Positions 3,661-9,711 of a stretch of 64,000 nt of DNA are shown one piece after another. The notes under the pieces are model-generated. The model had not been told where the DNA came from. It did no database searches and saw only the letters and a program-made list of their open reading frames with translations. Numbering within the stretch: position 1 is the first letter of the stretch; each line of letters begins with the position of its first letter. A program made the position numbers and the translations under genes. Source of the stretch: Kordiimonas marina (lineage in GTDB: Bacteria; Pseudomonadota; Alphaproteobacteria; Sphingomonadales; Kordiimonadaceae); the NCBI RefSeq assembly GCF_023006325.1, contig NZ_JAINDF010000004.1, forward strand, positions 434,001 to 498,000, in the 5' to 3' direction.

Positions 3661-4659
<999 letters not shown>

Positions 4660-5152: not shown

Positions 5153-6046
5153 ATGGACTGGGACAGGCTTCGTATTTTTCACACTGTCGCCGAATGCGGC
5201 AGCTTCACGAGCGCGGGGGCGCGGCTCAACTGCAGCCAGTCGGCTGTCAGCCGCCAGATCCGCGCGCTTGAGGAAAGCCTGAATGTCTCGCTCTTTACCC
5301 GGCACGCCCGCGGCCTCGTCCTCACGCAGGAGGGGCAGGAGCTTTATAACACCGCGCGTGAGGTGGTGCTCAGGATCGAGGAAACCGAACGCAGCCTGAT
5401 GGAATCGAAGGAGCGGCCCTCAGGCCTGTTCCGCGTGACCACCATGGTCACCTTCGGTGCCGTGTGGCTGACACCGCACCTGGAACAGTTCATGGCCGAA
5501 TATCCGGATATCGACATCCAGCTTATCCTGGACGACCAGGACCTGGACCTGTCCGCCGGGGCCGCCGACGTGGCGATCCGTCTGCATGAACCGGAACAGG
5601 CCGAGCTGATCCAGCGTCCGCTGGCCACCTTCCATGCCCATATTTACGCAAGCCCGGAATATCTGGACAAGCACGGCACGCCGGTCACCACCGACGACCT
5701 GGATTTCCATGACCTGATCACCTTCGGCATCTCAAACGTGCCGACAATCCGGGAACTGAACTGGCTGCTGACCGTGGGGAACCCGCGCAAGAAGCGCAAG
5801 CCCCGGCTACAGGTCAACAACCTTTATGCCGTGCTGCACGCGGTTGAGCGCGGCATGGGCCTCGCGGTCTTGCCGGACTATCTGGTCTATAACCGCAAGA
5901 AGCTGGTGCGGGTGCTGCCGGACGTGAAGGGCCACAGCTTCAACAGCTATTATTGCTACGCGCCGGAGCTTCGCGGTTCCCTCAAGGTAGCGCTGTTCCG
6001 TGATTTCATGATCCGGCAGATCAGGGCCGAGAGCAATATCCTCTAG
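5153..6046 (+). CDS. LysR-family transcriptional regulator
   Basis: A 297-residue LTTR. The N-terminal winged helix (residues 1-62) carries the usual FHTVAECGSFTSAGARLNCS and QSAVSRQIRALEESL recognition region. The rest is a periplasmic-binding-protein-like effector domain with an unusual run of charged residues (GNPRKKRKPRLQ) near residue 210. The start is ATG with AAGGGGAA upstream. It is divergent from the small winged-helix gene across about 135 bp, the classic arrangement for LTTR autoregulation. Position after trxB suggests a redox-related regulon, but that is inference; no cysteine pair like that of OxyR stands out. Confidence 0.9.
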   Translation: MDWDRLRIFHTVAECGSFTSAGARLNCSQSAVSRQIRALEESLNVSLFTRHARGLVLTQEGQELYNTAREVVLRIEETERSLMESKERPSGLFRVTTMVTFGAVWLTPHLEQFMAEYPDIDIQLILDDQDLDLSAGAADVAIRLHEPEQAELIQRPLATFHAHIYASPEYLDKHGTPVTTDDLDFHDLITFGISNVPTIRELNWLLTVGNPRKKRKPRLQVNNLYAVLHAVERGMGLAVLPDYLVYNRKKLVRVLPDVKGHSFNSYYCYAPELRGSLKVALFRDFMIRQIRAESNIL

Positions 6047-6064: not shown

Positions 6065-7741
6065 TTACTGGCAGTGCGGATCATCAAGGCCGACGGTATA
6101 GGCCTTCTTGATGACGTCACCTTCCTCCAGCGCATAGGCCGCGTCCATCCCCTTCACCACATGACCGAACATGGTGTAGCGGCCATTGAGATGCAGGTTA
6201 TAGGCGGTATTGATGAAGAACTGGGTGCCGCCCGTATCCTTGCCGGAGGTGGCGAGCCCCACGGTGCCGGGCCGGTGGTCGGAGACGAACCATTCGTCGC
6301 GGATACTGCCCCAGTTGTTGATATCCTTATTCTCCACAGCCCCGGCCTGGGCGACAAAATCCGGGATCACCCGGTGCCACACCATGCCGTCCATCTTTCC
6401 GGCATCGGCCAGGCGGCGGAAATTGGTCGCCGTATAAGGCGTGCGGGGCTCAAACGCGATGCAGATATCGCCGCGCGTCGTCTCCAGAAGCAGGTCCCGG
6501 CCCAGGTAGGAACGGACAAGCGCATCGCGCGGGGTTTTCCGGGCGGGCACCCGCGTCTCCAGGCTAGGGTCAAGCCGGACGGCGGCGTCATAGCCGCGCG
6601 CAGTGCCCTGATGGCTATCGGCATAATCCTGCAGCACGGCCTTGCCTTCATCGCTGCCCGCCAGGATGCCCATCGCCTTATAGGCCAGGTAATAGTCCTT
6701 GCCCTGAAGCCACTCACCGGCGACATCGTTCGCCGCGGGCCGGTCGACATCAGCCAGGCCTTCAAGCGCGGTCGCCGCCAGCCATTTGTTGGGGTCCTTC
6801 ACCATGGCGCGCAGGATTGTGGCCGCGGCCTTTTCGTCAGGCGCCCGGCGCGCGAGGCTCGCAAGGCTGATCTGGCGGATGAAAACATCGCCCTTCTGTG
6901 CATGGGCCGCAAGATAAACTGCCGTGGTTTCATCCGTGCGGCCACCCATGGCGCGCACCGCTTCATAGCGCATGGCCTTGGTGCCCGTCTCCGCGATCTT
7001 GACAAGCATGGGCCCCGCGCCTTCACCGAACTGGCCGAGGAGACGCACAAGGCGCGGCTTCACGCCATCGTCCGCCTTCTCGATGGCGGCATAAATGGCC
7101 TTGGCATCGAGAACCGCGTCCAGGCCCTGAAACCGGGTAAGCAGGTAAGCCGCCGCCACGCCGCGCTCGCCTTTATCCGAGAGCGCCAGCACATGGGGAA
7201 AATCGAGGTCAGACAGGTGCCGGGCATCCATGCGGTCATAAACGATCGCCTGCATGAGGCCATAAAGCGGTGCGGTCGCCTTCACGCCCGTCTCATCCGC
7301 GCCAATGGCATTCACCGCTTTGACAAGAACACTGAGCGCCGCCTTGCCACCCGAAAAACCGAGCGCCCGCATATAGGCGTCATAGACCTTCGCGTCCTTG
7401 GGGTCGGGCGCCGGAGCAGCCAACAGCGCGGGGGCGAGGCCCTTGTCCTGACAGTAAGCGGCGCCTGTGAAAGCCGCGCGCCGGGCTTCCGCCACGCCCG
7501 AGTCAAAATAAGGGGTGAGCTTGCGGCAAGCATCGCCGCCAATCTGGCCGAGCATCTCCAGCGCGTCGTAATCGCGGGCCTTCAAAGCCTCCTCAAACAC
7601 GGGATTCGCCGCATCTCGGGCGTCTGTCGCCGCCCTCATCTCAGCCATGAAAACATTTTTTGCCGCTGAATTGACAGCGCTTACCTGGCCGCCTGCAGCA
7701 AAAGTTAACAGAAGGGCGGCAATCATGTTCCGGTGTATCAT
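6065..7741 (-). CDS. Exported HEAT-repeat / cyclophilin-type peptidyl-prolyl isomerase fusion
   Basis: A 558-residue exported protein. After a signal peptide (about 1-22) come roughly 380 residues of alanine-rich helical repeats with a HEAT/PBS-lyase look (repeated RLLGQFGEGAG and AVRAMGG patterns). The last 150 residues form a cyclophilin-like domain: LETTRGDICIAFEP, then MVWHRVIPDFVAQAG with the catalytic Arg of the HRVIP motif, GTQFFIN and NGRYTMFGHVVKGMD. Cyclophilins isomerise X-Pro bonds during folding; here the repeats would be a client- or partner-binding scaffold in the periplasm. The usual Gly-Gly-Asp after Q is changed to AQAGAVE, so activity may be altered. ATG at 7741 follows GGGAG. 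The gene stands alone, convergent with the LysR gene. Confidence 0.85.
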   Translation of the reverse strand: MIHRNMIAALLLTFAAGGQVSAVNSAAKNVFMAEMRAATDARDAANPVFEEALKARDYDALEMLGQIGGDACRKLTPYFDSGVAEARRAAFTGAAYCQDKGLAPALLAAPAPDPKDAKVYDAYMRALGFSGGKAALSVLVKAVNAIGADETGVKATAPLYGLMQAIVYDRMDARHLSDLDFPHVLALSDKGERGVAAAYLLTRFQGLDAVLDAKAIYAAIEKADDGVKPRLVRLLGQFGEGAGPMLVKIAETGTKAMRYEAVRAMGGRTDETTAVYLAAHAQKGDVFIRQISLASLARRAPDEKAAATILRAMVKDPNKWLAATALEGLADVDRPAANDVAGEWLQGKDYYLAYKAMGILAGSDEGKAVLQDYADSHQGTARGYDAAVRLDPSLETRVPARKTPRDALVRSYLGRDLLLETTRGDICIAFEPRTPYTATNFRRLADAGKMDGMVWHRVIPDFVAQAGAVENKDINNWGSIRDEWFVSDHRPGTVGLATSGKDTGGTQFFINTAYNLHLNGRYTMFGHVVKGMDAAYALEEGDVIKKAYTVGLDDPHCQ

Positions 7742-7964
7742 TCTCTACTCCCGCGCTAAACCGTTGCCCAATATAACGTTTTTGGGTCAGCATTGCTGTA
7801 CTATTTTTAACCCGCCTAAGCCATTCGTTAAACAAATGGTCACAAAAGCGTAACTATGCATAAAACGCATAGCTGGTACGGCAGAAAAAAGGGTTTTTCT
7901 ATCCGGCCCACAGGCATATATACCTCTCAACAGCGGCGAACGCGAAAGCGAACCGCTTACGAAT
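7742..7964. other. Non-coding stretch upstream of the HEAT-cyclophilin gene
   Basis: No convincing gene. It should hold the promoter of the leftward HEAT-cyclophilin gene. A 6-bp inverted repeat, CTATGC (7854-7859) and GCATAG (7867-7872), is visible. A short open frame running rightward from 7856 has no protein character. Confidence 0.5.
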
Positions 7965-7995
7965 TTGACGGCATACCGTTGGTCTTCCGTCATAA
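7965..7995 (+). promoter_or_regulatory. Possible promoter of the small RNA
   Basis: TTGACG at 7965-7970 and TCATAA at 7990-7995 with a 19-base spacer. The -35 is good, the spacer long. It would place the start near 8001, at the base of the first hairpin. Confidence 0.35.
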
Positions 7996-7996
7996 A

Positions 7997-8141
7997 GGTC
8001 GGTCCCGGGGTTCCTCCCCCCTCCCCCCCCACTTCCCCCCCGGGACCGGCCCTTTTCGTCTTAAGTGTTTCTAAGACGCATGAACCTCCCTATGTTTACT
8101 AACTTTTTAGACCCCGGCTTTTGCCGGGGTCATTTTCTTTG
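7997..8141 (+). ncRNA. Candidate trans-acting small RNA with anti-Shine-Dalgarno-like loop
   Basis: Three successive stem-loops on the plus strand with no coding capacity. Hairpin 1 pairs 7997-8010 with 8038-8051 and exposes a 27-base loop made almost only of C and T, including CCTCCCCCC. Hairpin 2 pairs CGTCTTA (8057-8063) with TAAGACG (8072-8078). A linker carries a second ACCTCCCT (8083-8090). Hairpin 3 is an intrinsic terminator. Because the terminator points rightward and no rightward gene precedes it, a non-coding transcript is the simplest explanation. CU-rich loops that mask ribosome sites are known in alphaproteobacterial small RNAs (the alpha-r and 'cuckoo' types). Start point uncertain; family membership unproved. 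Confidence 0.5.
8110..8141 (+). terminator. Orphan rightward intrinsic terminator (small RNA 3' end)
   Basis: GACCCCGGC (8110-8118), TTTT loop, GCCGGGGTC (8123-8131), then ATTTTCTTT. The opposite strand has an A-rich tail, so it works rightward only. Confidence 0.8.
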
Positions 8142-8250
8142 TGGCAGGATTCCAGGCCAAAAGGCCGCCCCCACTTGCGCGGGGCACGGACTTCAGGACA
8201 GCCGCTTTTTAATGAATCGGAATCCGTAAAGGCTGGGCGGGTTGGCGCAC

Positions 8251-9087
8251 TTAGCCTGCCAGTTCTTCGCCGCGCGTGCGGGCGGCGTGCATGGCTTCCG
8301 CCATCAGCGCGGCAAGGCCGGCTTCGTCCCGCATCAGAATATCAAGCGCCGCCTTGGTGGTCCCGCCCGGGCTTGTCACCCGGCGCCTCAGTTCAGCCGC
8401 GGGCACATCGGGCTGGGCTTCCATCAGATGCGCGGCGCCAATGATGGTCTGACGCGCAAGCTTCATCGCCACATCGGCCTCCAGCCCTTCGGCAACACCG
8501 GCCGCCGCCATGCATTCGACCATATAGAACACATAGGCCGGGCCACTGCCGGACACGGCCGTGACCGAATTGATCTGGTCTTCATGGTCGAGCCAGACGA
8601 CCTGACCGATGGCAGATAGCAGACGCCCTGCCACCGCGCGGTCATCCGCCGCCACATTGGGCGCAGGCGCGAGGCCGGTGATCCCGGCGCCGACAGCCGC
8701 CGGCGTGTTCGGCATGGCGCGCACGAAGCGGGCGGAAACCCCCAGGCCTTTTTCAAGCCGGGCAACGGTGATCCCGGCAGCAACCGAAATCACCAGCGTT
8801 TCAGGGACCGTAAAGGCACCGAGAGGCTTGAGCGCATCGTCCATCACCTGCGGCTTCACCGCCAGCACCAGCGCCCGTGCGGTCAGCCCCGCAGGCAGGG
8901 CATCGGCGCTTGTCACAAAATGATCCGCAGGCACGCCCGGCAGGACGTCAGGGCCTGCCGCGGGGTCAACCACATAAAGCGCATCTGCCGGATGGCCTGC
9001 CTTCAGCCAGCCTTCGGCCATGGCGCGGCCCATGTTGCCGCAGCCGACCAGAATGAGCGGATGGTGAGTGTCGAACCCGTCATGCAT
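8251..9087 (-). CDS. proC: Pyrroline-5-carboxylate reductase
   Basis: A 278-residue enzyme for the last step of proline synthesis, reducing pyrroline-5-carboxylate with NAD(P)H in the cytosol. The Rossmann motif GCGNMGRAMAEGWL opens the protein, VKPQVMDDAL follows, and the C-terminal dimer domain holds the P5CR signature AVSGSGPAYVFYMVE and SPGGTTKAALDIL. Length is typical. ATG at 9087 has AAGGGG nine bases upstream. It follows ybjN on the same strand with a gap of about 110 bp, so the two may be cotranscribed. Confidence 0.95.
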   Translation of the reverse strand: MHDGFDTHHPLILVGCGNMGRAMAEGWLKAGHPADALYVVDPAAGPDVLPGVPADHFVTSADALPAGLTARALVLAVKPQVMDDALKPLGAFTVPETLVISVAAGITVARLEKGLGVSARFVRAMPNTPAAVGAGITGLAPAPNVAADDRAVAGRLLSAIGQVVWLDHEDQINSVTAVSGSGPAYVFYMVECMAAAGVAEGLEADVAMKLARQTIIGAAHLMEAQPDVPAAELRRRVTSPGGTTKAALDILMRDEAGLAALMAEAMHAARTRGEELAG

Positions 9088-9198: not shown

Positions 9199-9711
9199 CT
9201 AAGCCGTGCCTACGCACTCTAACATGGCGGCCTCGATCGCGCCTTCGGGCGACTGCCCTCCCCACATTACAAACTGGAAGACCGGATAGAAGCGCTCGCA
9301 CTCATTGACCGCATTATCGATCATCGTCGCGACATGCTCCTCGCTCAAGGCACCCAGCATCGGGTCGTTGGCAAGGCTGGCATGGCGATAGAGAAGCGCG
9401 TCTTCTTCCGCCCAATATTCGAAATGGCCGATCCACATACGTTCATTGATCAGCCCGATGGTGTGATAGATATCCATCCGCCGCCCTTCCGGCACGCGGA
9501 GGTCGAACAGGCAGGCAAATTGAAGGGTCTTGAAATCCTCGCGCCAGAAAACCCGGAACTGCAGGTCGGTATAATGGCCGGAGATGAACATAGTCAGTTC
9601 ATCGTCGCCATGGCGCTCGACGGCCCAGTCATTGGCGCCCGCCATTTCCTCGACCATGTCGACAGGATTGCTGTGGATTACTTCGGAGTGTCCGGTACTT
9701 AAGGTGGTCAT
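9199..9711 (-). CDS. YbjN domain-containing protein
   Basis: A 170-residue soluble protein of the YbjN family, a type III secretion chaperone-like fold. The core runs from residue 13 (NPVDMVEEMAGANDWAVERH) through FRVFWREDFKTLQFACLFD to the acidic C-terminal helix AVNECERFYPVFQFVMWGG. Bacterial YbjN proteins are linked to motility and stress in enterobacteria; in alphaproteobacteria a copy often sits next to proC, as here. No catalytic residues are visible, so the role is unknown. ATG at 9711 follows a GGGGGAAACGAG leader end. The leader upstream contains alternative hairpins, described separately. Confidence 0.85.
   Translation of the reverse strand: MTTLSTGHSEVIHSNPVDMVEEMAGANDWAVERHGDDELTMFISGHYTDLQFRVFWREDFKTLQFACLFDLRVPEGRRMDIYHTIGLINERMWIGHFEYWAEEDALLYRHASLANDPMLGALSEEHVATMIDNAVNECERFYPVFQFVMWGGQSPEGAIEAAMLECVGTA

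Follow-up and report, generated by a model that had tools for sequence, protein, structure and literature searches.

A conserved RNA gene near trxB-lsrB in Kordiimonadaceae, a probable LsrB-activated anti-Shine-Dalgarno small RNA

Comparative evidence from related sequences identifies a conserved, stand-alone RNA gene as real in the 64-kb window analysed here (the whole stretch of 64,000 nucleotides from Kordiimonas marina), where it follows trxB, lsrB and one cyclophilin gene. We consider it probable (about 0.8) that the product is a trans-acting, LsrB-activated anti-Shine-Dalgarno (anti-SD) small RNA (sRNA) that corresponds to AbcR1 in position and shows a lineage-specific enlargement of the C-loop. 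The steps for which the sequences provide support are a conserved multi-hairpin RNA, its own promoter and terminator, and an LsrB/VtlR-type box upstream of them, spaced as in the abcR1 promoter.

Architecture and conservation of the RNA gene

The most prominent element of the gene is a stem of 14 pairs, one of them G-U, that was read from the sequence as 7997-8010 (GGTCGGTCCCGGGG) with 8038-8051 (CCCCGGGACCGGCC) and which is extended by AAA/TTT with a one-base bulge (7994-7996/8053-8055). Its 27-nt loop (8011-8037) is all pyrimidine except for an A at 8031 and contains UUCCUCC, CCUCCCC and ACUUCCC, with 8011-8041 forming the longest run of pyrimidines interrupted by no more than one purine on either strand of the window (31 nt versus 24 nt for the next). 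This is followed by a second stem of 7 bp (8057-8063/8072-8078), a linker and a terminator-like site found on the + strand only. The minimum free energy of 7990-8145 was -63.7 kcal/mol, compared to a mean of -40.0 (sd 3.6) across 200 dinucleotide shuffles, none of which folded as well (z = -6.65). In the predicted fold, the UUCCUCCCCCC loop is unpaired, placing an anti-SD motif in a hairpin loop, while the linker is partly paired. Both stems, the pyrimidine loop, the linker and the terminator had been described in an earlier note made from the sequence alone, and all were confirmed as described there. The same note had stressed that no rightward gene precedes the terminator, which is correct: the cyclophilin gene and proC flank the RNA and both run leftward, so no rightward gene lies directly 5' of the terminator.

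The extent of the gene had to be revised, since the earlier note proposed three hairpins and a transcript of about 140 bases. Based on two upstream hairpins (P1 and P2) and a conserved promoter, the gene probably spans ~7930-8139 on the + strand, with ~210 nt and five predicted hairpins (Table 1); its start, obtained by counting on from the -10, would lie ~65 nt earlier than proposed. Predicted lengths ranged from 171 to 250 nt in 15 of 20 orthologues, a range that omits L001, L004, L008, L010 and L014, where the terminator was not correctly placed.

Table 1. Features of the RNA locus and its neighbourhood (positions in the window)
Feature	Position	Strand	Basis or remark
trxB, thioredoxin reductase, conserved lsrB neighbour	3697-4659	+	TIGR01292 above cut-off
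LysR-type regulator, LsrB/VtlR orthologue, proposed activator of the RNA	5153-6046	+	Structure match; next to trxB
HEAT-repeat/cyclophilin gene, separates lsrB from the RNA gene and is distinct from it	6065-7741	-	Pfam
LsrB/VtlR-type box, ATGC-N7-GCAT with GCAT-N3-TG extension	7856-7876	+	20 orthologues; putative LsrB binding
Core promoter: GGGTTTTTC block (kept in many orthologues); -10 TATATA	7891-7899; 7917-7922	+	Alignment of 20 orthologues
Hairpin P1 (5')	7932-7957	+	Predicted hairpin in 5' segment of 20/20 orthologues; sequence varies
Hairpin P2, TGACGG/CCGTCA	7966-7992	+	96.2% of cells paired; 2/6 pairs changed on both sides
Hairpin P3: 17-bp stem, one-base bulge at 8052, C-rich 27-nt loop	7994-8055	+	Covariation
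Hairpin P4, 7 bp	8057-8078	+	Variable in sequence; unclear in some orthologues
Linker ACCTCCCT, second anti-SD-like stretch ACCUCCCU	8084-8091	+	Matches CCUCCCU of model R2
Rho-independent terminator P5, followed by ATTTTCTTT	Stem 8110-8131; element to 8139	+	Fold; terminator search
proC	8251-9087	-	

The RNA has a single blastn copy in its own genome and blastn matches in 20 of 29 Kordiimonadaceae genomes, its own included. A covariance model (R1) covering the two central hairpins, built from 14 of these 20 sequences, matched 26 of the 29 genomes, of which 12 were independent of the training set; two matches were weak (G007, E 4e-6; G008, E 9e-5), and R1 found no match in G006, G018 and G022. 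Outside the family, R1 matched five of 118 genomes (E 5e-4 to 9e-3), with approximately one expected by chance. Among named genomes, an exact pattern for the RNA occurred in eight contigs, from three uncultured Kordiimonas, one Kordiimonadaceae MAG, Pseudokordiimonas caeni and three Alphaproteobacteria MAGs. Gene order was also preserved: the upstream gene was the cyclophilin gene or lsrB at 26/26 loci (lsrB itself in L008, L009, L012, L013, L014 and L099), and proC lay downstream at 13/26. Separately, a second, weak R1 match occurs in the K. marina genome at C22:70857-70913 (E 0.0018).

Compensatory changes, which the earlier note had suggested looking for in relatives, are frequent. The alignment of 14 sequences, 13 of them distinct, has 97.0% of its cells paired, and both sides have changed in 13 of 23 pairs; for P3, these values are 97.3% and 11 of 17 pairs. 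None of 500 shuffles reached the observed pairing or both-side changes and 4/500 reached the pair-type count, for a structure drawn from the same sequences on which it was scored, and pairing fell to 32-58% when partners were slid. As one example, the stem 1 extension is AAT/ATT rather than AAA/TTT in some orthologues, both sides having changed together, with the one-base bulge kept. Together, the single blastn copy, conservation in the family and covarying stems bear out the proposal of an RNA gene.

These data leave little room for readings that involve no RNA gene. A structured DNA element or intergenic transcription terminator would account for the strong terminator, but in the window the terminator has no rightward gene directly before it, the element is headed by a conserved promoter and it has a single blastn copy with compensatory changes in the two hairpins tested, making this explanation very improbable. 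We give even less weight to a short protein-coding gene: open frames do cross the locus (for example, the 72-codon frame 7856-8074), but loop length differs by single bases among orthologues, P2 loops are of very different length, and indels that are not multiples of three combined with covarying stems argue against coding.

The LsrB-type promoter and proposed targets

The LysR protein encoded upstream of the RNA matched PDB 9HH1, the structure of Agrobacterium tumefaciens LsrB (PMC11975290), at E 2.5e-85, with the next LysR structures at ~1.5e-32. The trxB-lsrB order is described as well conserved in the class (PMC7486931). In A. tumefaciens, LsrB is reported to be a thiol-based redox regulator in which loss of C273 raises peroxide sensitivity (PMC11975290), and Kordiimonas Cys268 aligns with this residue in an alignment read by eye. 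The counterpart of C144 of rhizobial and A. tumefaciens LsrB is Val in Kordiimonas, which suggests that redox sensing may differ.

The sequence ATGC-N7-GCAT upstream of the RNA conforms to the T-N11-A pattern of LysR-type boxes. The published VtlR/LsrB box (GCAT-N3-TG-N3-T; PMC7486931, PMC8844928) has the 3' part of this sequence, GCAT-N3-TG, as its core. The distance from the start of ATGC to the -10 is 61 nt in 16/20 orthologues and in the K. marina window, and 60 nt in 4/20. Six further family loci also have a box upstream, although that of L101 is poorer. The palindrome with N7 spacing gave 13 matches versus 2 in the control; N6 spacing was rejected as mostly noise (50 versus 33).

As a positive control, we examined three loci (L263-L265), from Sinorhizobium meliloti and Rhizobium leguminosarum, both with annotated trxB and LysR/VtlR, and from Shinella, each of which has two copies of ar15 right after lsrB, with all six scoring 97-127 bits (cut-off 40). 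Upstream of the first copy, we found ATGCGCAAACGGCAT-GGC-TG in S. meliloti, ATGCAGAACACGCAT-GAC-TG in R. leguminosarum and GCAT-N3-TG only in Shinella. The box-to--10 distance of rhizobial abcR1 is within ~1 base of that in Kordiimonas, as judged by reading with the rhizobial -10 assigned by eye. Published accounts of the role of LsrB in AbcR expression disagree for S. meliloti: one report describes LsrB binding to the promoter in gel shifts, >22-fold lower promoter activity without the predicted box and LsrB as indispensable for AbcR1 (PMC8844928), whereas another describes LsrB as not involved in AbcR expression (PMC7486931).

From this arrangement, we infer a circuit in which LsrB, a LysR regulator responsive to redox state, would occupy about -74 to -60 and switch on transcription of the RNA. 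The RNA, probably together with Hfq, would expose two C-rich anti-SD stretches, one in the large loop, where the rigid stem-loop would hold out the three C-rich motifs, and one in the ACCUCCCU linker. By analogy with AbcR, translation could be blocked by base pairing of these stretches to G-rich ribosome-binding sites.

Candidate sites for such pairing are present in the K. marina genome, where GGGAGGAA-ATG occurs at 32 places versus 3 for the reversed-pattern control. Among 30 of these loci, the reading frame is shorter than 60 codons in 7, and several further ones resemble outer-membrane or secreted proteins when their translations are read by eye. The best duplex involves a secreted-protein gene (beta-helix by reading; L302-L318) found in 17 of 19 genus genomes, with an internal stop in four of the 17 matches. 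GGGGA or GGGGG precedes the in-frame start in 16 of these 17 genomes (starts chosen by eye), compared to 8 of 50 window genes with such a ribosome site under a loose count. This gene is a possible conserved target of the C-rich loop but a lead only, because the match itself led to its selection and the genomes are relatives of one another. Pairing with the ribosome site of lsrB was considered and rejected, as GGGG is not kept in five relatives. Next to proC, the ybjN gene (9199-9711, - strand) has a ribosome site, CCGGGGGGAAACGAG, that is complementary to the RNA loop.

A second LsrB-type box, with one mismatch, is present elsewhere in the genome (C11:61209-61230; L067 2710-2731) and lies upstream of a small gene (L067 2275-2592, - strand) encoding 105 aa with a Gly-rich tail; gene and box lie between prmA and a DUF389 gene. 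The 105-aa protein had no match in Pfam and none above cut-off in NCBIfam. It was found beside the box at 13 of 20 box sites chosen and fetched from relatives and was absent at five, while L151 and L152 have the same neighbours and a diverged frame. Agrobacterium VtlR is likewise described as activating an sRNA and a small-protein gene (PMC7486931); if the broader reading of a single ancestral gene, taken up below, is true, LsrB in Kordiimonadaceae would control the RNA and one small protein.

The class-wide lsrB-RNA pattern

Of 240 class genomes, 128, K. marina among them, encode an LsrB-like protein at a threshold of E 1e-70, and trxB lay upstream within the locus in 25 of the best 29 of 127 non-own lsrB loci. 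In 54 of these 127 genomes, we searched the sequence that follows lsrB and found a box within 600 nt in 28/54 loci, compared to 8/271 control windows further along; in the other 26 loci, a box was not seen within this distance. A CCUCCCUGUU-type RNA was present in 24 of the 28 box loci; in 21, CCTCCCTGTT occurred within 400 nt of the box, and three more (L158, L160 and L173) have a near variant of it. A module with a terminator was found by pattern in 31/54 loci and is preceded by the exact hairpin ACGTCTCCCAGACGT in 22 of these 31, as counted by eye. Across L156-L224, the module ACGUCUCCCAGACGU-GAAGCCUCCCUGUU-terminator was observed just after lsrB in many alphaproteobacterial families.

A second covariance model (R2), built from 30 of the 31 lsrB-adjacent modules, showed pairing in 86.2% of alignment cells versus 23-40% when slid. 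Changes on both sides affected 10 of 14 pairs, as many as in none of 500 shuffles, but slid versions reach 9. At E 0.001, R2 matched 199 of 385 class genomes, with the match in the K. marina genome lying elsewhere than the window place. Among the matches listed, R2 lies downstream of lsrB on the same strand within 6 kb in 64/73 genomes (within 500 nt in 58), and, outside the training set, is adjacent to lsrB in 28/33 genomes (within 500 nt in 27). No Rfam family reached its cut-off in 14 scanned lsrB-adjacent module loci, where SorX came nearest (42.0 bits, cut-off 46.6), and the R2-type RNA of Tistrella mobilis scored 40.6 bits for suhB (cut-off 41). In the stretches fetched from Azospirillum, Methylobacterium and Microvirga (L266, L268 and L271), neither the box nor an R2 match was found.

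Descent and relation to known RNA families

At the Kordiimonad locus, the Rfam comparison that the earlier note had suggested gave a best score of 21.8 bits, for suhB/alpha-r8 (RF00519; cut-off 41), and no family in Rfam 15 reached cut-off, with none gained at E up to 5; specifically, ar15 (RF02345) had no match at 7750-8260 and SorX (RF02784; cut-off 46.6 bits) none at the RNA locus, both up to E 5. With 14.1 bits and E 0.011, the best R2 match in the window is a weak one; it falls on the 3' end of the RNA (8058-8139). Five other places in the genome outscore it (22.2, 20.6, 14.9, 14.7 and 14.4 bits), the best of them at another SorX/SorY-like RNA, and the window place is not among the 14 matches listed. 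Across the Kordiimonad loci, 9/26 match R2 at E up to 1, all nine at the RNA 3' end, and the remaining 17 have no match at this threshold. In the same genome, a probable sRNA at C18:535136-535216 (L255 1502-1614, - strand) is SorY/SorX-like, at 36.6 and 32.8 bits, below cut-off. We found no earlier report of the Kordiimonad RNA in the open-licence literature.

These results bear on whether the RNA shares ancestry with the class-wide RNAs or arose as an unrelated anti-SD sRNA that came independently to the same locus and under LsrB. Consistent with independent origin, the C-loop of P3 has no counterpart outside the family beyond the five weak R1 matches, ar15 finds no match and the weak R2 match is outscored elsewhere in the genome. 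Against it stand the shared locus, a box of the same kind placed at almost the same distance and an identical CCUCCCU-linker-terminator order, and P1 of L015 and L017 (GCTGC-N3-GCAGC) resembles that of several class-wide relatives. We therefore regard independent origin as possible but doubtful and common descent with the class-wide RNAs as likely, though unproven, given the shared locus, box and linker-terminator order set against weak R2 and no ar15 match. A different question is whether the RNA serves chiefly as a sponge, with capture of a G-rich RNA by the C-rich loop in place of pairing with the ribosome sites of mRNAs. The loop is unusually long and C-rich, and the G/A-rich RNA CrfA of Caulobacter is reported to pair with CCUCCCU-bearing Sis RNAs (PMC12559287), and the counter-evidence is weak, namely that the candidate secreted-protein mRNA, chosen after the fact, keeps a GGGG-type ribosome site in 16/17 genomes; we find a sponge role unlikely.

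On the broader claim that AbcR1, the LysR-adjacent SorX-type RNAs, the CCUCCCUGUU RNAs and the Kordiimonad C-loop RNA share one ancestral gene, we lean slightly in favour. If true, a module linking LsrB to an anti-SD RNA beside trxB would date from early Alphaproteobacteria and be among the most widely kept alphaproteobacterial riboregulators, with its members at present assigned to different families or lacking annotation. AbcR RNAs are host-interaction and nutrient regulators studied in rhizobia and brucellae. With this type of box and an anti-SD RNA next to lsrB in Kordiimonadaceae and many other families, the circuit would seem to predate host association and to reach beyond it; alpha-r15 itself is described from Rhizobiaceae and Brucellaceae (PMC3712013). 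Through LsrB, whose gene lies beside that for thioredoxin reductase, the arrangement would connect translation control to redox state, a connection open to test. It also extends the definition of the box to a palindrome at a fixed distance from the -10, with which LsrB regulons can be read from sequence.

Several known systems resemble the Kordiimonad RNA in part. Cuckoo RNAs (CcsR1-4) and alpha-r14/NfeR1 have CCUCC-type anti-SD loops as well, and the stem-loops of cuckoo/CcsR RNAs expose CCUCCUCCC. This motif, given for SmelA075/A099 of S. meliloti (PMC3927594), is absent from 7930-8141, as is a tandem array, and the cuckoo link raised in the earlier note is not supported; furthermore, CcsR is described as deriving from the ccaF1 3' UTR (PMC8625941), whereas no same-strand gene directly precedes the Kordiimonad RNA. 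The alpha-r8/suhB/mmgR/SisA-D RNAs (RF00519), in the same Rfam clan as ar15, present UUUCCUCCCU single-stranded before the terminator, as does the Kordiimonad RNA, but their genes are usually found beside an N-formylglutamate amidohydrolase gene rather than lsrB (PMC12559287). SorX/SorY (RF02784, RF02651; Rhodobacter and relatives) have the CCUCCCUGUU-terminator module in common with R2. In Paracoccus and Pseudorhodobacter, RNAs directly after an LsrB-like gene score for SorX at 49.3 and 52.4 bits (cut-off 46.6) and are also matched by R2. SorX/SorY-scoring RNAs of this Paracoccus/Pseudorhodobacter set were observed at ~4039-4126 of L269, before annotated purL, and at ~4028-4115 of L270, a setting unlike that of R. 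sphaeroides SorX, which is described as processed from the 3' UTR of an ompR-type mRNA (PMC9438474).

The closest parallel is with AbcR1/AbcR2 (ar15; Rhizobiaceae and Brucellaceae). Like the Kordiimonad RNA, these lie downstream of trxB-lsrB/vtlR, abcR1 has the same type of box at nearly equal spacing, and both kinds of RNA end in a Rho-independent terminator and combine an anti-SD motif in a hairpin loop with a C-rich linker motif (PMC3712013, PMC5461406), for which Brucella AbcR uses CUCCCA and GUUCCC, respectively (PMC5461406). They differ in length (~210 nt versus 121 and 114 nt for AbcR; PMC8844928), in copy number (one versus a tandem pair) and in the giant C-loop and extra 5' hairpins of the Kordiimonad RNA. 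The alpha-r type suggested in the earlier note is thus right as to kind, given the AbcR1 position and box type, and wrong as to sequence, given that ar15 does not match. Overall, the functional parallel to AbcR is stronger than the sequence homology.
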